From: Candidatus Cloacimonadota bacterium
GTDB lineage: Bacteria > Cloacimonadota > Cloacimonadia > Cloacimonadales > JAFGVF01
NCBI GenBank assembly: GCA_016838885.1
Contig: JAEKNW010000298.1
Location: 1-34,753, forward strand
Direction of reading: 5' to 3'
Length of the DNA stretch: 34,753 nucleotides
The translations under genes and the position numbers were made by a program. The notes beneath the pieces are model-generated. The model did no database searches. It saw only the letters and a program-made list of their open reading frames with translations, and was not told the origin of the DNA. Below, piece by piece: positions 1,375 to 8,116 of this stretch (its first letter is position 1; every line of letters begins with the position of its first letter).

Positions 1375-3126
1375 CTAATTGAGGAAGTTCCAGGAGATTA
1401 AGACAGTGATAGATTGAGGGATAGTTCTATGTCCTGTAATGATTTGATTATCAAGAATATTCTTCCAATAAGCGTTTATTTCAAAGAGTTTTGTAATTTG
1501 GAAACCCAGATAAATATCGAGGAGAGAGCTTTGAGGATAGAGGACTTCAGCAGAATTTTCCCAAGCTAGATAGGCATCAAAATAGTGATGAGCTAATCCG
1601 GTTTTGATAAAGTTATTATGATTCACATCGCGTGAGATTTCTAATGAATTGGTAAGCATAGCCTTGGGGAGATAGTGGATGTCATAATTATCATAATCTT
1701 GATAGAATCTCATTAAGGAAGATAACTTGAAGGCATACTTGCCTAGAGAATAAAAAATATCACCGGCAAAGTGAGTTTTTATGGCTTGATAATCTTTAGC
1801 AAAGGGCGAATTTAGTAAATCTGTTTCAATATTTGCATTGCTGATAGCTGCTTCCAGGTTTATGTGGGAAGAAGAAAAGTGGAGATTTAGGCCGGTATTA
1901 TTCTTTTCATTAAGATAGAAGGGGGTATTTATAGGATTATCATCTGTGTCAGAAGTAAAGTCAGGAAAGAGATTTTCTTTTTTAAGAGTTTGTCGGAAAT
2001 GAGAAAATGCCCCAAATTTCCAGTTTTCAGTCAAGGTATAACTAAGTTCCGAATTAGTTAAAAGCTGGTAGGGGTAGGTTAGGACGATTCTATTGCTTAA
2101 GTTCAGATGGTCATAATCTGATGAAAGATAAAGATCTAAGACTTGGTCAAGATCAGATGATAAGGAGTTTAATTCCTGACTATAAAAATCTTCTTGGTGG
2201 AAGAAGTATTCATAGTTAATCTCACCATGCCAGTTCCTAGCATTAAAATCTTTATTTAAAAGGATTTGAAAATACTCTCTTTTTAGGGTTCTTGGGGTTA
2301 TTCTCTGATAATTTTCTGCAGAATATTTAAGACCAAACTTAAGTAAATTGTTGTTGTAGAAAGCTGAAAAAGATTGGCTATTCTCTTCAAATATTGTAGA
2401 GTTAAGCCTAAAAGCAGGAGAAAGACGATAATAGGGTCCTTCAAAAGAAACAGAGTTAAAAGCAATATCCAGGTAACTATTCTTAAAAGGAATAATTAGA
2501 TTACCAGTAGTATTAGAAGCTAGTTCACTCCCATTATAGAAATCAGCTTTAACGAAATTCATTCTGAAATCTAAATTATATCGATCGAAGAATTTGTTCT
2601 TTTTTAGGGCTACATAACCGGTGCCCAAATCATAATCTCCGGTAGAGGCAACTACTTCGATTGCTGTAACCGGTAAATCATAATATTCTTTATCTAAGTG
2701 GTAGAAATCTCCTGATAGGGTTTCTCTATAAAATCTATTATAATGTTGAAGTTTTAAATAGGTAGGGGAGAGTGAGTTAAGTTCTGTAAAGTTATCCTTG
2801 CGGATGAAGTAGTTATCAGTACTAAGTCCAAATAGATGTCCCTGAATTGACCAGAATAGTTTTTTGTTAGGGTCGCTTCGAAAACTTTCTCGACTTTCAC
2901 TCTTGTATTTTTCCACTCGTTCAAACAAGTTCAAATAGTCTGAATAATCAACTTCAGTACTAGTCTCATCTAAGGAATCAATAAGAGTTAGCATCCCCAA
3001 TGAATCAAGGCGGGCCTGATTAAAGAGGAGGGAATCACTAACAGTAGCCAGTGAATCGGATTGAGCATTACATAAAGTAACTGCTAGTAAGAAAGAGATT
3101 ATTGCACAATATATTTTTAATTTCAT
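1375..3126 (-). CDS. Putative outer-membrane beta-barrel/porin-like protein
   Basis: 583 aa; N-terminal signal peptide (MKLKIYCAIISFLLAVTLCNA), many alternating aromatic/polar beta-strand-like segments, C-terminus ...SITVLISWNFLN. Confidence 0.6.
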   Translation of the reverse strand: MKLKIYCAIISFLLAVTLCNAQSDSLATVSDSLLFNQARLDSLGMLTLIDSLDETSTEVDYSDYLNLFERVEKYKSESRESFRSDPNKKLFWSIQGHLFGLSTDNYFIRKDNFTELNSLSPTYLKLQHYNRFYRETLSGDFYHLDKEYYDLPVTAIEVVASTGDYDLGTGYVALKKNKFFDRYNLDFRMNFVKADFYNGSELASNTTGNLIIPFKNSYLDIAFNSVSFEGPYYRLSPAFRLNSTIFEENSQSFSAFYNNNLLKFGLKYSAENYQRITPRTLKREYFQILLNKDFNARNWHGEINYEYFFHQEDFYSQELNSLSSDLDQVLDLYLSSDYDHLNLSNRIVLTYPYQLLTNSELSYTLTENWKFGAFSHFRQTLKKENLFPDFTSDTDDNPINTPFYLNEKNNTGLNLHFSSSHINLEAAISNANIETDLLNSPFAKDYQAIKTHFAGDIFYSLGKYAFKLSSLMRFYQDYDNYDIHYLPKAMLTNSLEISRDVNHNNFIKTGLAHHYFDAYLAWENSAEVLYPQSSLLDIYLGFQITKLFEINAYWKNILDNQIITGHRTIPQSITVLISWNFLN

Positions 3127-3195: not shown

Positions 3196-3939
3196 TTAGA
3201 AACTACCGATTTCGAAAAATTCTTCGACTTGGGGTATTCCTGATTTCTTCGCTTGGTCCAAAGTCCCAGCGAAGAGTAGTTTTCCTTTATGTAAGTAAAT
3301 GATTCTATCTGCAATTCTGTGGATTGAAGCTAATTCGTGGGTAACAATGACCATTGACATATTCAGTTGATTCTTAAGGTTTATTATCAGCTTATCCAGG
3401 TCAGCACTGGTAACAGGGTCAAGTCCGGCAGAAGGTTCATCACAAAAGAGGATTTCTGGTTCCAAAGCTAAAGCCCGAGCCAAGGCAGCTCTCTTTTTCA
3501 TACCTCCAGATAGTTCAGAGGGGGTAAGATAGACTGCATGATCCAAGTTAACAAGATGGAGCTTGGTCTTGATTATTCTGTCAATAATCTCACGAGTTAG
3601 ATTTGTATGTTGTTCTAAAGGAATAGCGACATTGTCATAGACAGTTATGGAGTTCAACAGAGCTCCATTCTGGAACAACATCCCAGTTCTTTTGAGTATT
3701 TCATTAAACTGATCATCGTCTAAATTTAAAACCTCTTCTCCAAAAATCTCAACTTTACCCGAGAAAGGTTGATACATACGGAGTATATTCTTGAGTAGGG
3801 TAGTCTTGCCACAACCACTAGTCCCGAGAATTACAGTAACTTCGCCCTTGTACATTTCTACAGAAATACCATCTAGAACAATGTTATCACCATATTTTGC
3901 CACAAGGTCAGTAGTTTTAATAATAATATCTTTTTTCAT
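3196..3939 (-). CDS. mlaF: ABC transporter ATP-binding protein, MlaF-like (MCE/phospholipid transport)
   Basis: 247 aa; Walker A GTSGCGKTT, signature LSGGMKKRAALARALAL, Walker B EILFCDEPSAGLDP; next to MlaE and MCE genes. Confidence 0.9.
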   Translation of the reverse strand: MKKDIIIKTTDLVAKYGDNIVLDGISVEMYKGEVTVILGTSGCGKTTLLKNILRMYQPFSGKVEIFGEEVLNLDDDQFNEILKRTGMLFQNGALLNSITVYDNVAIPLEQHTNLTREIIDRIIKTKLHLVNLDHAVYLTPSELSGGMKKRAALARALALEPEILFCDEPSAGLDPVTSADLDKLIINLKNQLNMSMVIVTHELASIHRIADRIIYLHKGKLLFAGTLDQAKKSGIPQVEEFFEIGSF

Positions 3940-3941
3940 AA

Positions 3942-5018
3942 TTATAAGTAGATTAAGCTAAATGCTGCATCGGCTAAGATAACAGCAAAGATTGAAGTAA
4001 CAACAGAGCTGGTAGTTGCTTTACCAACACCTTCAGCTCCTCCGGTAACTTTCATCCCATAATAGGCACCAATGATGACTATTAACCAGCTGAAAGTGAT
4101 TGTTTTTATTAGGGTAATAATAATGTCTTTCACAGCCAAAATATTAATCGATCGAGAGATATAGACTTCTAAAGCTACATCTAAAAAACCAACAGAAATC
4201 AATAATCCTGCTCCCATACTAATCAGAATTGAGAAAGCTACAAGGATAGGCATAGTTAAGGTAATTGCATGAAATTTAGGAACGATGACATATTTGATCG
4301 GATTCAAAGCCATCATTTTCAAGGCATCAATCTCTTCGGTTACCTTCATCGTGGCTATCTCTGAGGCAATGGCTGAACCAGATCTACCTGCAATAATAAT
4401 AGCCGTGATTAAAGGCCCCATCTCTCTAACAATAGAGATACTTAAGAGATCAGCTATATAGACATTAGCTCCGAATTTTTGAAGTTGAAAGCCGGATTGC
4501 AAAGTTAGAATAAAGCCAATCACAAAAGATAATAAGGCTACAATAGGTAAGGCATCTAAACCGATAGCAATTGCTTGCTCTGTAACTGAACCTTTACGTC
4601 TGCCTTTTTTATTTACTATTCCGGTAATACTCCACCAAATAGTATCTGAAGCTAAATATAGACCATCAACAATTTGTTTGATAAAGGAAAGAAAATTATC
4701 TCCAGTTTTTACAAAAATATTATCAGGGACAGGTTTAACAGCAGATTCACCTTTGATAGTCTTGAAAATCTCTATAGTTTTCATAATGGTAGGGTTACCA
4801 TTCTCTAAAGATTCAGAGGTGAGTTTATTTCTGTCAAGAATAGTCTCGATAAAGGAAACTCCTGCTCCGTCAATCTCTTCTACATCTTTTAAATTGAGCT
4901 TGGAAATCTTTTCTTTGCCGAATTTATGGTCAAAGTCTTTTAGCAAGACTGTAATATTAGCAATCACAATTTTACCAGAAATATTCAAGGTTTGATCTTT
5001 TATACTAAGTTTACTCAT
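3942..5018 (-). CDS. mlaE: MlaE-family permease with N-terminal STAS-like (MlaB-like) domain
   Basis: 358 aa; about 90 aa STAS-like N-terminus (SKLNLKDVEEIDGAGVSFIETI) then MlaE core with REMGPLITAIIIAGRSGSAIASEIATMKVTEEIDAL. Confidence 0.9.
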   Translation of the reverse strand: MSKLSIKDQTLNISGKIVIANITVLLKDFDHKFGKEKISKLNLKDVEEIDGAGVSFIETILDRNKLTSESLENGNPTIMKTIEIFKTIKGESAVKPVPDNIFVKTGDNFLSFIKQIVDGLYLASDTIWWSITGIVNKKGRRKGSVTEQAIAIGLDALPIVALLSFVIGFILTLQSGFQLQKFGANVYIADLLSISIVREMGPLITAIIIAGRSGSAIASEIATMKVTEEIDALKMMALNPIKYVIVPKFHAITLTMPILVAFSILISMGAGLLISVGFLDVALEVYISRSINILAVKDIIITLIKTITFSWLIVIIGAYYGMKVTGGAEGVGKATTSSVVTSIFAVILADAAFSLIYL

Positions 5019-5024
5019 AATATC

Positions 5025-7151
5025 TTAAAAGAAGTAGGATAAGCGGATGAATGAGCTAGTTTTATAAACAAAGTAGTCTCTGTAATTTTTATCATAATTA
5101 ACATCAAACCTGACGTCCCAAGAGACATTTCTAATTAACTTCAAATTAAAGACATTAATAAATTCGAAGGTGGGATCTCCATCTCCTTGTAGTGGTACTA
5201 ATAAATCAGCTGTTGATGACCACGATAATCTAATCTGCGGAATATTAAAATTACCAACAATTGAAGTTGCAATACCTCTTGTAGATGTATCAGGAATTTG
5301 TCTGTAAATATTGAATCCATTTGCATCTGTTCTATCAAAAACCAAGACCTCATTATTATAAGTTTGAAGCCAGCCCAAACCAGCTCTGAAATTAACATTT
5401 CCATATCTGTTCAAACCTACTCTCCAGTTTAAACCTATATCCTCTTTTAAAGTTAGAGGAAATAGAGGATCTTGCAGAGTTATGTCATCTTTGTTAAGTA
5501 AAGAATCAATCAAAGAGCCTTGTTGATTATATACAAGATAATCTGTCTCGGAATTGAAATATTGACGTTTCGGCAAGAAATGAGAATTTGCATCTAATCT
5601 TCCATAAAAACCAATGTTGTTCCAAATGTTATAAATCACTGTATTGTTAATTCTAAAATCATCAACGGAAATCTTTAAATCCTGATCAGATTCTTTATTG
5701 AATCCAAGCTCCCAGTTGACTCTTCCATCATAATTTAAGTTATCTTTTTCGTATTTAATTCTTGTGTCTAATTGACTGCTCAAGGTGATATTTTCATCGA
5801 ATGAGTCCTCTTCAGTTTCGTTATTAGCATTTATATTGAAGTTGAGGTGGAAGGCATTTTGAGTGTTCCAGTTAGATTCATTTAACAAAGCTTCAGTTTC
5901 TTGGGGGTGAATTCCTGCACCTAGAAGTTTCCCGTTAGTTCCATCAGGGTCAACAACCATTGTAAGATTATAGTGCTTTCCAGATTCTAAGGTGATTGTA
6001 GTAAAATCAATATAGGAAGAAAAAGAGGCACCATCAACAGTAATGAAATAGAGGTCAGGTTTCAATATCCACACTCGATTTTCTTCACCAACTTCGTCTG
6101 ATGCAGATAGATCATTTCCTACTGATTCATTTGAATTACCTTTAAAAATTTCGTATCTCATTCTGACATTAGTTTTCCCACTATCAATAATTTTTATAGT
6201 CAAAGAACTCCAGGTAGGTGTAACAATAGTTCTATACTTTGGTTTAACTTCAGTTGGGTGGATTATTTCCGTTTCTTGTCCTCGACCAAGATAGAGGGTA
6301 TATTTCCCTACCGGCAAGGTTATTACTTCTCCCATATCGATCTCATAATCTGATTCAGTTTCAGTACTTCTTATGAAAACCTTAGGAGCAGTAGTGCTTG
6401 TTGATAGATTTGGTACTAACAACTCACCTGTTGTCTCCTCATAGTCATCATCAGCAAGCTTTTCAAAGTCATCAATATTATCAAGCTTATCTGCATTTAG
6501 TTCAGGTATTAGATTTTTGCTTTCTATTCCATTAACAAAGTAATCTTTAGACTTCATTAAAAATTTGTCATACTCTTCAGAGATTATTACTGAGAAAGTT
6601 TGGACTATTGAACTCATATCACTATCTAATACGGGCTCAGTTCTATTTGATCTGTGAACAACAACTATATTCTGTTTAGCGTTCCTTAAATAAAAGTCCA
6701 TTTTAACATGAGCAGAAACTCTTTCATTAACATTAACTTGTTCAATACTAGCAACAAAGCTATCAATATAAAAATCAGGAAGAGTTGTAAAAAAGTCTCT
6801 TTGGGCATTATCAAAAAAGTTATATCTGTTAGCTTTTTGTAGCAGCAATTGGGGTATTGAATTATAGAGTTTATCTGCCCATACTGCTTCATTGGAATAT
6901 GAAATAGTATTTATTGAGTTTTTTGATACTATTTGATTTCTTTGATATGAACGGGGAATCTGAGATTCAGTAATCTCAACACTATAGGGGAAGGGAACAG
7001 TTTGTTTTAATTCTTCCTTATCTAAATGGGGGAAGTAATCTAAGATGTAGTATTTAACTTCAACTATATCTCTGTTGTTAGAACATGCGCTAAAAAAAGT
7101 TAACACCAAAAACAATATTATTATTAAAAAATATATTTTTTTCATAAGCAC
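5025..7151 (-). CDS. Lipoprotein with N-terminal PqiC/ABC_trans_aux-like domain, a middle beta-rich domain and a C-terminal outer-membrane beta-barrel-like domain
   Basis: 708 aa; lipobox-like TFFSAC; PqiC-like VKYYILDYFP...SQIPRSYQRNQIVSKNSINTISYSNEAVWADKL; C-terminal ~260 aa of amphipathic strands ending ...SSFIRLSYFF. Confidence 0.7.
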   Translation of the reverse strand: MLMKKIYFLIIILFLVLTFFSACSNNRDIVEVKYYILDYFPHLDKEELKQTVPFPYSVEITESQIPRSYQRNQIVSKNSINTISYSNEAVWADKLYNSIPQLLLQKANRYNFFDNAQRDFFTTLPDFYIDSFVASIEQVNVNERVSAHVKMDFYLRNAKQNIVVVHRSNRTEPVLDSDMSSIVQTFSVIISEEYDKFLMKSKDYFVNGIESKNLIPELNADKLDNIDDFEKLADDDYEETTGELLVPNLSTSTTAPKVFIRSTETESDYEIDMGEVITLPVGKYTLYLGRGQETEIIHPTEVKPKYRTIVTPTWSSLTIKIIDSGKTNVRMRYEIFKGNSNESVGNDLSASDEVGEENRVWILKPDLYFITVDGASFSSYIDFTTITLESGKHYNLTMVVDPDGTNGKLLGAGIHPQETEALLNESNWNTQNAFHLNFNINANNETEEDSFDENITLSSQLDTRIKYEKDNLNYDGRVNWELGFNKESDQDLKISVDDFRINNTVIYNIWNNIGFYGRLDANSHFLPKRQYFNSETDYLVYNQQGSLIDSLLNKDDITLQDPLFPLTLKEDIGLNWRVGLNRYGNVNFRAGLGWLQTYNNEVLVFDRTDANGFNIYRQIPDTSTRGIATSIVGNFNIPQIRLSWSSTADLLVPLQGDGDPTFEFINVFNLKLIRNVSWDVRFDVNYDKNYRDYFVYKTSSFIRLSYFF

Positions 7152-7156
7152 TCCTA

Positions 7157-8116
7157 TTAATCTCCTCTTAGAAGAATTGTGGGATTATCATTTATCTGCT
7201 TAGTGAAATCATTAAGATTTTCCATAGCTTCACGAGCAGAATCTAAAATGTCTAAGATATCTCTTCTTGATCTAATAACAGTATTATCAACATTAGTAAT
7301 CATTGACTCAAATCGAATCACAGAATTATTCAAACTGGTAACAAGCAAATTCAGATCAGCTTCAGCCAAATCTGTCGAAATCGTATCCAGGTTGGTAATA
7401 ATGTTGTTTATTGAACTGCTATTTAGGATGTTGTTCAAAGCTGTAATCGACTGAGTAGTAGCTGTAACTAATGTATCTAATTTCACTTCTAGAACATTGG
7501 TAAATTTAGCTACATCTCCTGAAATCAACTCCAAATTATGCATAGTCCCCTCTAGAGTGGAACGATTCTCTGTCAAAATGGCATCAAGATTTCCTATTAT
7601 AGAGGCAATATTATCAATGTTGTCTTGATCTGCAATTCTGTTTAGACTCTTGATTAGCTCATCTAATTGTTCTGTTATCGAGACAGCTTTATTGGTAATA
7701 GTCCCGAAGAGAGATTTCTCAACTTCTATATAGGAAGCTGGTGGTAAGAGCTTTGATTCATTGGTACCTCCCTTAATCTCGATAGCATGTAATCCCGTGA
7801 TCCCCACCGGAGATAGCGAAGCCTTGGCATCGTTTTTGATTGGTGTACCACCCCTAATACTTATTGTAACAATTATTGATGTTACATCCTCAGGAGATAT
7901 TATAATCTCATCAACCCTTCCAACTCCGATTCCTTGATAATTAACCTTACTACCAACATCTAATCCTCCCACTGATTCATTACGAAAATTGATGTAGTAG
8001 ATGTCACGCTTTTGGGATAAATTTGTCCCAGCTATGACAGCTATGGTAATAATTATTAAGGTAAAACCGGTTATTAAAAATACTCCAAGACGATATTTCT
8101 GAGCTTTATTCGCCAT
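7157..8116 (-). CDS. mlaD: MCE-domain (MlaD family) lipid-transport protein
   Basis: 319 aa; one N-terminal TM, MCE domain (GLDVGSKVNYQGIGVGRVDEI...LSPVGITGLHAIEIKGG), long helical tail ending NPTILLRGD. Confidence 0.9.
   Translation of the reverse strand: MANKAQKYRLGVFLITGFTLIIITIAVIAGTNLSQKRDIYYINFRNESVGGLDVGSKVNYQGIGVGRVDEIIISPEDVTSIIVTISIRGGTPIKNDAKASLSPVGITGLHAIEIKGGTNESKLLPPASYIEVEKSLFGTITNKAVSITEQLDELIKSLNRIADQDNIDNIASIIGNLDAILTENRSTLEGTMHNLELISGDVAKFTNVLEVKLDTLVTATTQSITALNNILNSSSINNIITNLDTISTDLAEADLNLLVTSLNNSVIRFESMITNVDNTVIRSRRDILDILDSAREAMENLNDFTKQINDNPTILLRGD

Follow-up and report, generated by a model that had tools for sequence, protein, structure and literature searches.

How a bridge built on an MCE protein makes contact with the outer membrane is unsettled, and PqiC-type caps are thought to lie among the headgroups of the inner leaflet. 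The question is raised anew by a gene in a 34,753-nucleotide stretch from a Candidatus Cloacimonadota bacterium (GenBank assembly GCA_016838885.1, contig JAEKNW010000298.1; the whole stretch is called the window here), in which a PqiC-like lipoprotein and a predicted outer-membrane beta-barrel are encoded as one chain between mlaD and mlaE. The 708-codon open reading frame (ORF) was found at 5025–7151 on the minus strand, with its stop at 5025, as an earlier reading made from the DNA letters (the sequence-only reading) had placed it, and its start is probably the ATG at 7145, two codons into the ORF and with AGGAG upstream, giving a product of 706 amino acids (aa). Residue numbers follow the 708-codon reading, not the 706-aa product. 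An assembly artefact was ruled out, since the fused ORF is present in about 100 genomes, one of which (G011) is a single contig.

The N-terminal part was shown to be a PqiC-like lipoprotein, which the sequence-only reading had proposed on the basis of a lipobox and a PqiC-like region. Cys23 of the lipobox (FFSA-C23) was invariant in 36 homologues, with S, F, M, L, A, T, V or G, but never Asp, at position +2. PF03886 matched residues 56–190 (E 1.7e-6; 28.2 bits compared to a cut-off of 26) and was matched by 35 of the 36 homologues. Foldseek comparison with PDB showed the PqiC fold, with the DUF330 protein XCC0632 of Xanthomonas (2iqi, TMt 0.84) as the best match by E-value, besides ECL_02694 (6osx, 0.88) and E. 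coli PqiC (8q2c, 0.80). A sequence-only PDB search yielded nothing beyond sub-threshold PqiC matches, and no match to the fusion was found in PHROGs or NCBIfam. The domain is followed by a poorly conserved linker (mean conservation 0.24 compared to about 0.5 in the domains) and by a middle domain that was conserved on a par with the other domains. This middle had been described as beta-rich and PEGA/Ig-like; its all-beta character was confirmed, but the PEGA/Ig-like identity was supported by no Pfam family, as the domain gave no Pfam match.

For the C-terminal domain, the results support an outer-membrane-type barrel, as predicted by AlphaFold2. Modeled alone, the domain showed 14 long antiparallel strands with a pLDDT (per-residue model confidence) of 88.7 and a pTM (predicted TM-score) of 0.78. 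The barrel family DUF3078 (PF11276) matched residues 453–526 (E 2.5e-9; 37.8 bits compared to a cut-off of 25), and DUF481 was matched by 26 of the 36 homologues and DUF3078 by 20 (E ≤ 0.01). The 50 best PDB matches found by Foldseek were mostly outer-membrane barrels (OmpG, NalP, EstA, FapF, and porins). Hydropathy alternation along the strands was 2.63 compared to 1.08 ± 0.22 in shuffled sequences, a value reached by 0 of 2000 shuffles, whereas the middle domain was without strong alternation. Furthermore, a co-evolution analysis of 138 sequences (effective number 109) placed 10 of the 13 neighboring strand pairs in the top 12 of 91. The barrel expected by the sequence-only reading was thus recovered, except that it comprises 281 aa and not about 260. 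A soluble or surface beta-sheet domain in its place would agree with the lack of an independent demonstration of closure, strands 1 and 14 giving no co-evolution signal, but is hardly credible in view of the long strands, the hydropathy alternation, the barrel families and structural matches, and the signal peptides on the stand-alone forms described below. The barrel was as conserved as the PqiC-like domain (0.51 for both) and contained many invariant polar and glycine positions. The same genome also carries a stand-alone 307-aa DUF3078-like protein with a signal peptide (L155:7290-8213(-), contig C276), which is a probable paralogue of the barrel domain.

The fusion belongs to a minus-strand run of four genes separated by gaps of a few bases (Table 1), and its position between an MCE gene and mlaE was confirmed by the PF02470 and PF02405 matches of the two neighbors. 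Together with the adjacent PF00005 gene these make up a MlaEFD-type transporter set. A homologue was found in 112 of 125 Cloacimonadota genomes, the ORF being full length across most of one order, and the order MlaD-fusion-MlaE-MlaF was kept in nearly all of 40 loci read and also in Marinimicrobia. In a genus that is often without the protein, G018 carries a single MCE gene, which is of the other MCE type. Among 149 sampled genomes from the phylum to which a Marinimicrobia record belongs, the fused form was present in 16, one of which (G256) has it only in pieces where contigs end. The survey across phyla represents one pattern from a 7-row subset of the 36-row alignment, and its coverage is incomplete. 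In many relatives (L028:837-6944(+) and other loci of family f8) a SprA_N gene of about 2000 aa, associated with type 9 secretion or gliding, lies directly upstream of mlaD. Two records titled Armatimonadota/Armatimonadetes (L096 and L097) are the same contigs as those of genomes placed in Cloacimonadota and are probably mislabeled.

KSB1, families f5 and f7, and the majority of a second Cloacimonadota family (f13, with f12) were found to carry two adjacent genes instead of the fusion; in KSB1 and deeper Cloacimonadota the operon is organized as MlaD-PqiC-barrel-MlaE-MlaF. These genes encode a PqiC-type lipoprotein of about 200–225 aa, in each case with a lipobox, and a barrel protein of about 490–534 aa, nearly always with a signal peptide. 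The linker of the fusion in family f6 (L106/L043) retains the start of the mature barrel protein of its split relatives (LTEEQIQTWL..RDIVGLGRLFLP); of the pair in this family, L043 is intact and L042 contains an in-frame stop. In a tree rooted on four barrel-free KSB1 loci, the split lineages were the deepest and fusion had occurred at least two times independently. A single fusion event was rejected when the fused rows were forced into one clade (approximately unbiased test, p-AU 3.7e-72), and a tree with 71 rows agreed. The fused copies of Marinimicrobia (L165–L173) and one f13 copy (L182) were nested among the Cloacimonadota fusions. This placement speaks for horizontal transfer and, as far as the trees go, suggests that the whole fused operon was transferred to Marinimicrobia and to one f13 genome. 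Because the same two neighbors were fused repeatedly, the PqiC-type lipoprotein and the barrel appear to be tied to each other. That they are chance neighbors, the barrel being a general porin or secretion protein fused to PqiC by read-through and sharing no function with it, is highly improbable and largely refuted: related DUF3078 barrels do stand alone elsewhere in the genome, but the gene order is the same in three lineages, split and fused, fusion recurred, and the gene has been retained phylum-wide.

The MCE protein itself was not found to carry a C-terminal barrel, as judged by its length (319 aa) and the short tail after NPTILLRG; 68 MlaD homologues were 283–454 aa long with similar tails. 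A tail motif (about NEFSRxIsEdPSxLxR) was common to operons with and without a barrel and differed from the tail of a second MCE protein, whose gene has no PqiC neighbor. A fixed regular expression proved too stringent for the motif (18 of 64 with PqiC and barrel), and the tails were therefore compared by eye. The presence of the motif in both kinds of operon is consistent with docking of the tail on the PqiC-like domain and not on the barrel. MlaA (PF04333) was found in none of 31 genomes, with positive E. coli and Caulobacter controls, and LpxC was found in 25 of 26, so that these bacteria appear as lipopolysaccharide-type diderms without the E. coli acceptor. In the genome of the window, the second MCE gene (L154:8185-9090(-), contig C83) encodes 301 aa ending in NPKKYIDLKIF, and is accompanied by a gene for 1026 aa (L154:5094-8174(-)), whose product contains regions resembling peptidase-MA and WD40 and ends in what looks by eye like an Omp85-type barrel. 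L186 holds a pair of the same kind. This is possibly another MCE-barrel pairing.

The fusion probably forms the outer-membrane terminus of a transenvelope lipid transporter built on an MCE protein, of the kind that combines MlaEFD with PqiC ('Mpc'), here with a cap that carries a barrel. In this view MlaE and MlaF would make up the ABC transporter of the inner membrane, and MlaD would assemble into the MCE ring and span the periplasm with its long C-terminal region. The PqiC-like domain, lipid-anchored at the outer membrane, would take the tip of MlaD, and the barrel on the same chain would anchor the cap in that membrane and may also open it to lipids. As lipoprotein and barrel are on one chain, their stoichiometry must be 1:1. 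AlphaFold2 prediction of the whole fusion (16 sequences) gave a mean pLDDT of 79.6 and a pTM of 0.42, so that the relative placement of the domains is not fixed. The view of the sequence-only reading that the fusion docks an MCE bridge to the outer membrane in a different way was supported by synteny, natural splits, and repeated fusion, and neither of the two structural outcomes that it had named as refuting came about; physical docking, the complex, ring formation, the lipid cargo, and the role of the barrel are inferred.

Several observations weigh against this transporter. TM-scores of the barrel domain with known barrels reached only about 0.4–0.55 at best (Foldseek), and the closing strand pair 1–14 gave no co-evolution signal (1.7 compared to a background of 1.85 ± 0.67 in the 138 sequences), so that closure is presumed; Foldseek did match the domain to closed barrels. 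A ring of six to eight barrels is without precedent, and Grasekamp et al. thought a hexameric barrel ring unlikely in Veillonella (PMC10665443). It is doubtful, though conceivable, that Cloacimonadota, some Marinimicrobia, and KSB1 have a distinct class of transenvelope lipid bridge, with a 14-stranded barrel on every subunit of a PqiC-type ring, and that a ring of barrels round the bridge tip, or lateral seams between the barrels, gives lipids access to the outer leaflet. Finally, four KSB1 loci were organized as MlaD-PqiC-MlaE, with MlaF next in three, and no barrel gene between, which shows that some such bridges do without the barrel. These operons also favor a more modest role, in which the barrel serves purely to anchor the PqiC cap laterally in the outer membrane and moves no lipid, so that transport would stop at the inner leaflet, as has been suggested for PqiC. 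The independence of the MlaD tail motif from the barrel and the firm anchoring offered by a lipid anchor and a barrel on one chain agree with such a role, but a plain anchor would need neither the conservation of the barrel, which equals that of the PqiC-like domain, nor its many invariant polar and glycine residues. We give this alternative a less than even chance.

A solved precedent for a PqiC-type ring beneath a barrel is found in Pel export of Pseudomonas, where twelve copies of PelC, a lipoprotein with a PqiC-like fold, are arranged in a ring on the barrel PelB (PMC10897342, PMC12141448). By analogy, a lipid or another substrate could pass through the barrel to the surface. However, PelB and PelC are separate proteins in a ratio of 1:12, with a polysaccharide cargo, a 16-stranded barrel, and no MCE/ABC partner (PMC12141448), whereas the fusion imposes 1:1 and its operon partners are those of an MCE/MlaEF lipid transporter and not polysaccharide genes; an export channel of this type is thus quite unlikely.

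Among known MCE systems, Mpc of Brucella abortus (MpcEFDA), shown to be one complex by pull-down, is similar in its MlaE/MlaF-type ABC transporter, single-MCE needle of about 310 aa, and PqiC-like outer-membrane lipoprotein (PMC12436622). It works without MlaA or MlaC; in the genomes studied here MlaA was likewise not found, and MlaC was not searched for. Unlike the fusion, MpcA, whose gene comes last in the operon, is a simple PqiC-like lipoprotein, and no fused or adjacent barrel is described (PMC12436622). The barrel of Veillonella parvula, which the sequence-only reading had described as fused to MlaD itself, is likewise built into an MlaEFD bridge without MlaA/MlaC, but it has 10 strands and is carried by the long MCE protein (PMC10665443), whereas here a 14-stranded barrel is carried by the PqiC-like lipoprotein and none by MlaD. 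Barrel-MlaD was reported to be absent from bacteria of the Fibrobacterota-Chlorobiota-Bacteroidota (FCB) group (PMC10665443). E. coli PqiC, an octamer that caps an MCE tube (PMC10897342), shares the fold, the lipobox, and the predicted role as outer-membrane cap, and the operon of XCC0632 holds mlaFE and an MCE gene (PMC10897342). In contrast to the fusion operon, E. coli Pqi has three MCE rings in PqiB, a PqiA that is not an ABC permease, and a PqiC that ends at about 187 residues and has no barrel, and XCC0632 is a lipoprotein only, without the middle or barrel domain. In Arabidopsis the MCE protein TGD2 works with a separate outer-envelope beta-barrel partner, TGD4, whose barrel family differs from that of the fusion; to our knowledge, this system has no PqiC-like lipoprotein.

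Table 1. Genes of the operon and parts of the fusion protein, in window coordinates.
Feature	Position	Strand	Evidence
mlaD, MCE protein of 319 aa with transmembrane helix, single MCE domain, long C-terminal region, no barrel	7157..8116	-	PF02470 E 4.7e-13
Fusion gene, from probable start	5025..7145	-	ATG 7145, stop at 5025
Signal peptide and lipobox, residues 3-23 (lipidated Cys23 at 7083-7085)	7083..7145	-	AGGAG before ATG 7145; FFSA-C
PqiC-like (ABC_trans_aux/DUF330) domain, residues 33-207	6531..7055	-	PF03886; AlphaFold2 and Foldseek
Linker, low confidence, poorly conserved, residues 208-240; fusion junction	6432..6530	-	pLDDT mostly <50
All-beta periplasmic middle domain, residues 241-414	5910..6431	-	AlphaFold2 strands, mostly pLDDT 60-87
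Predicted 14-stranded outer-membrane beta-barrel domain, residues 428-708 (281 aa)	5028..5870	-	AlphaFold2, Foldseek, DUF3078/DUF481
mlaE, permease with weak N-terminal STAS (MlaB-like) match	3942..5018	-	PF02405 E 1.2e-71; STAS E 0.017, below cut-off
mlaF, ATPase	3196..3939	-	PF00005 E 3.5e-31; best NCBIfam the MlaF-type NF008809, below its cut-off

The N-terminal extension of MlaE with its weak STAS match suggests an MlaB-MlaE fusion. After mlaF, the window contains a gene (1375–3126, minus strand) for a 583-aa protein with a signal peptide, a barrel-like C-terminus, and no Pfam match, which was not seen downstream of mlaF at the other loci read.

No earlier description of a PqiC-barrel fusion was found in the open-access literature (subscription papers and preprints were outside the scope), where MCE systems fused to a barrel were found with MlaD as the sole carrier (PMC10665443). 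In the present case the cap carries the barrel, and operons without a barrel gene, with two separate genes, and with the fusion occur alongside one another, which makes the contact between bridge and outer membrane testable. Repeated gene fusion links PqiC-type lipoproteins with a barrel, the 1:1 construct suits structural work, and an outer-membrane partner is suggested for FCB systems that otherwise lack a barrel. These results indicate that MCE bridges can terminate in an outer-membrane barrel.
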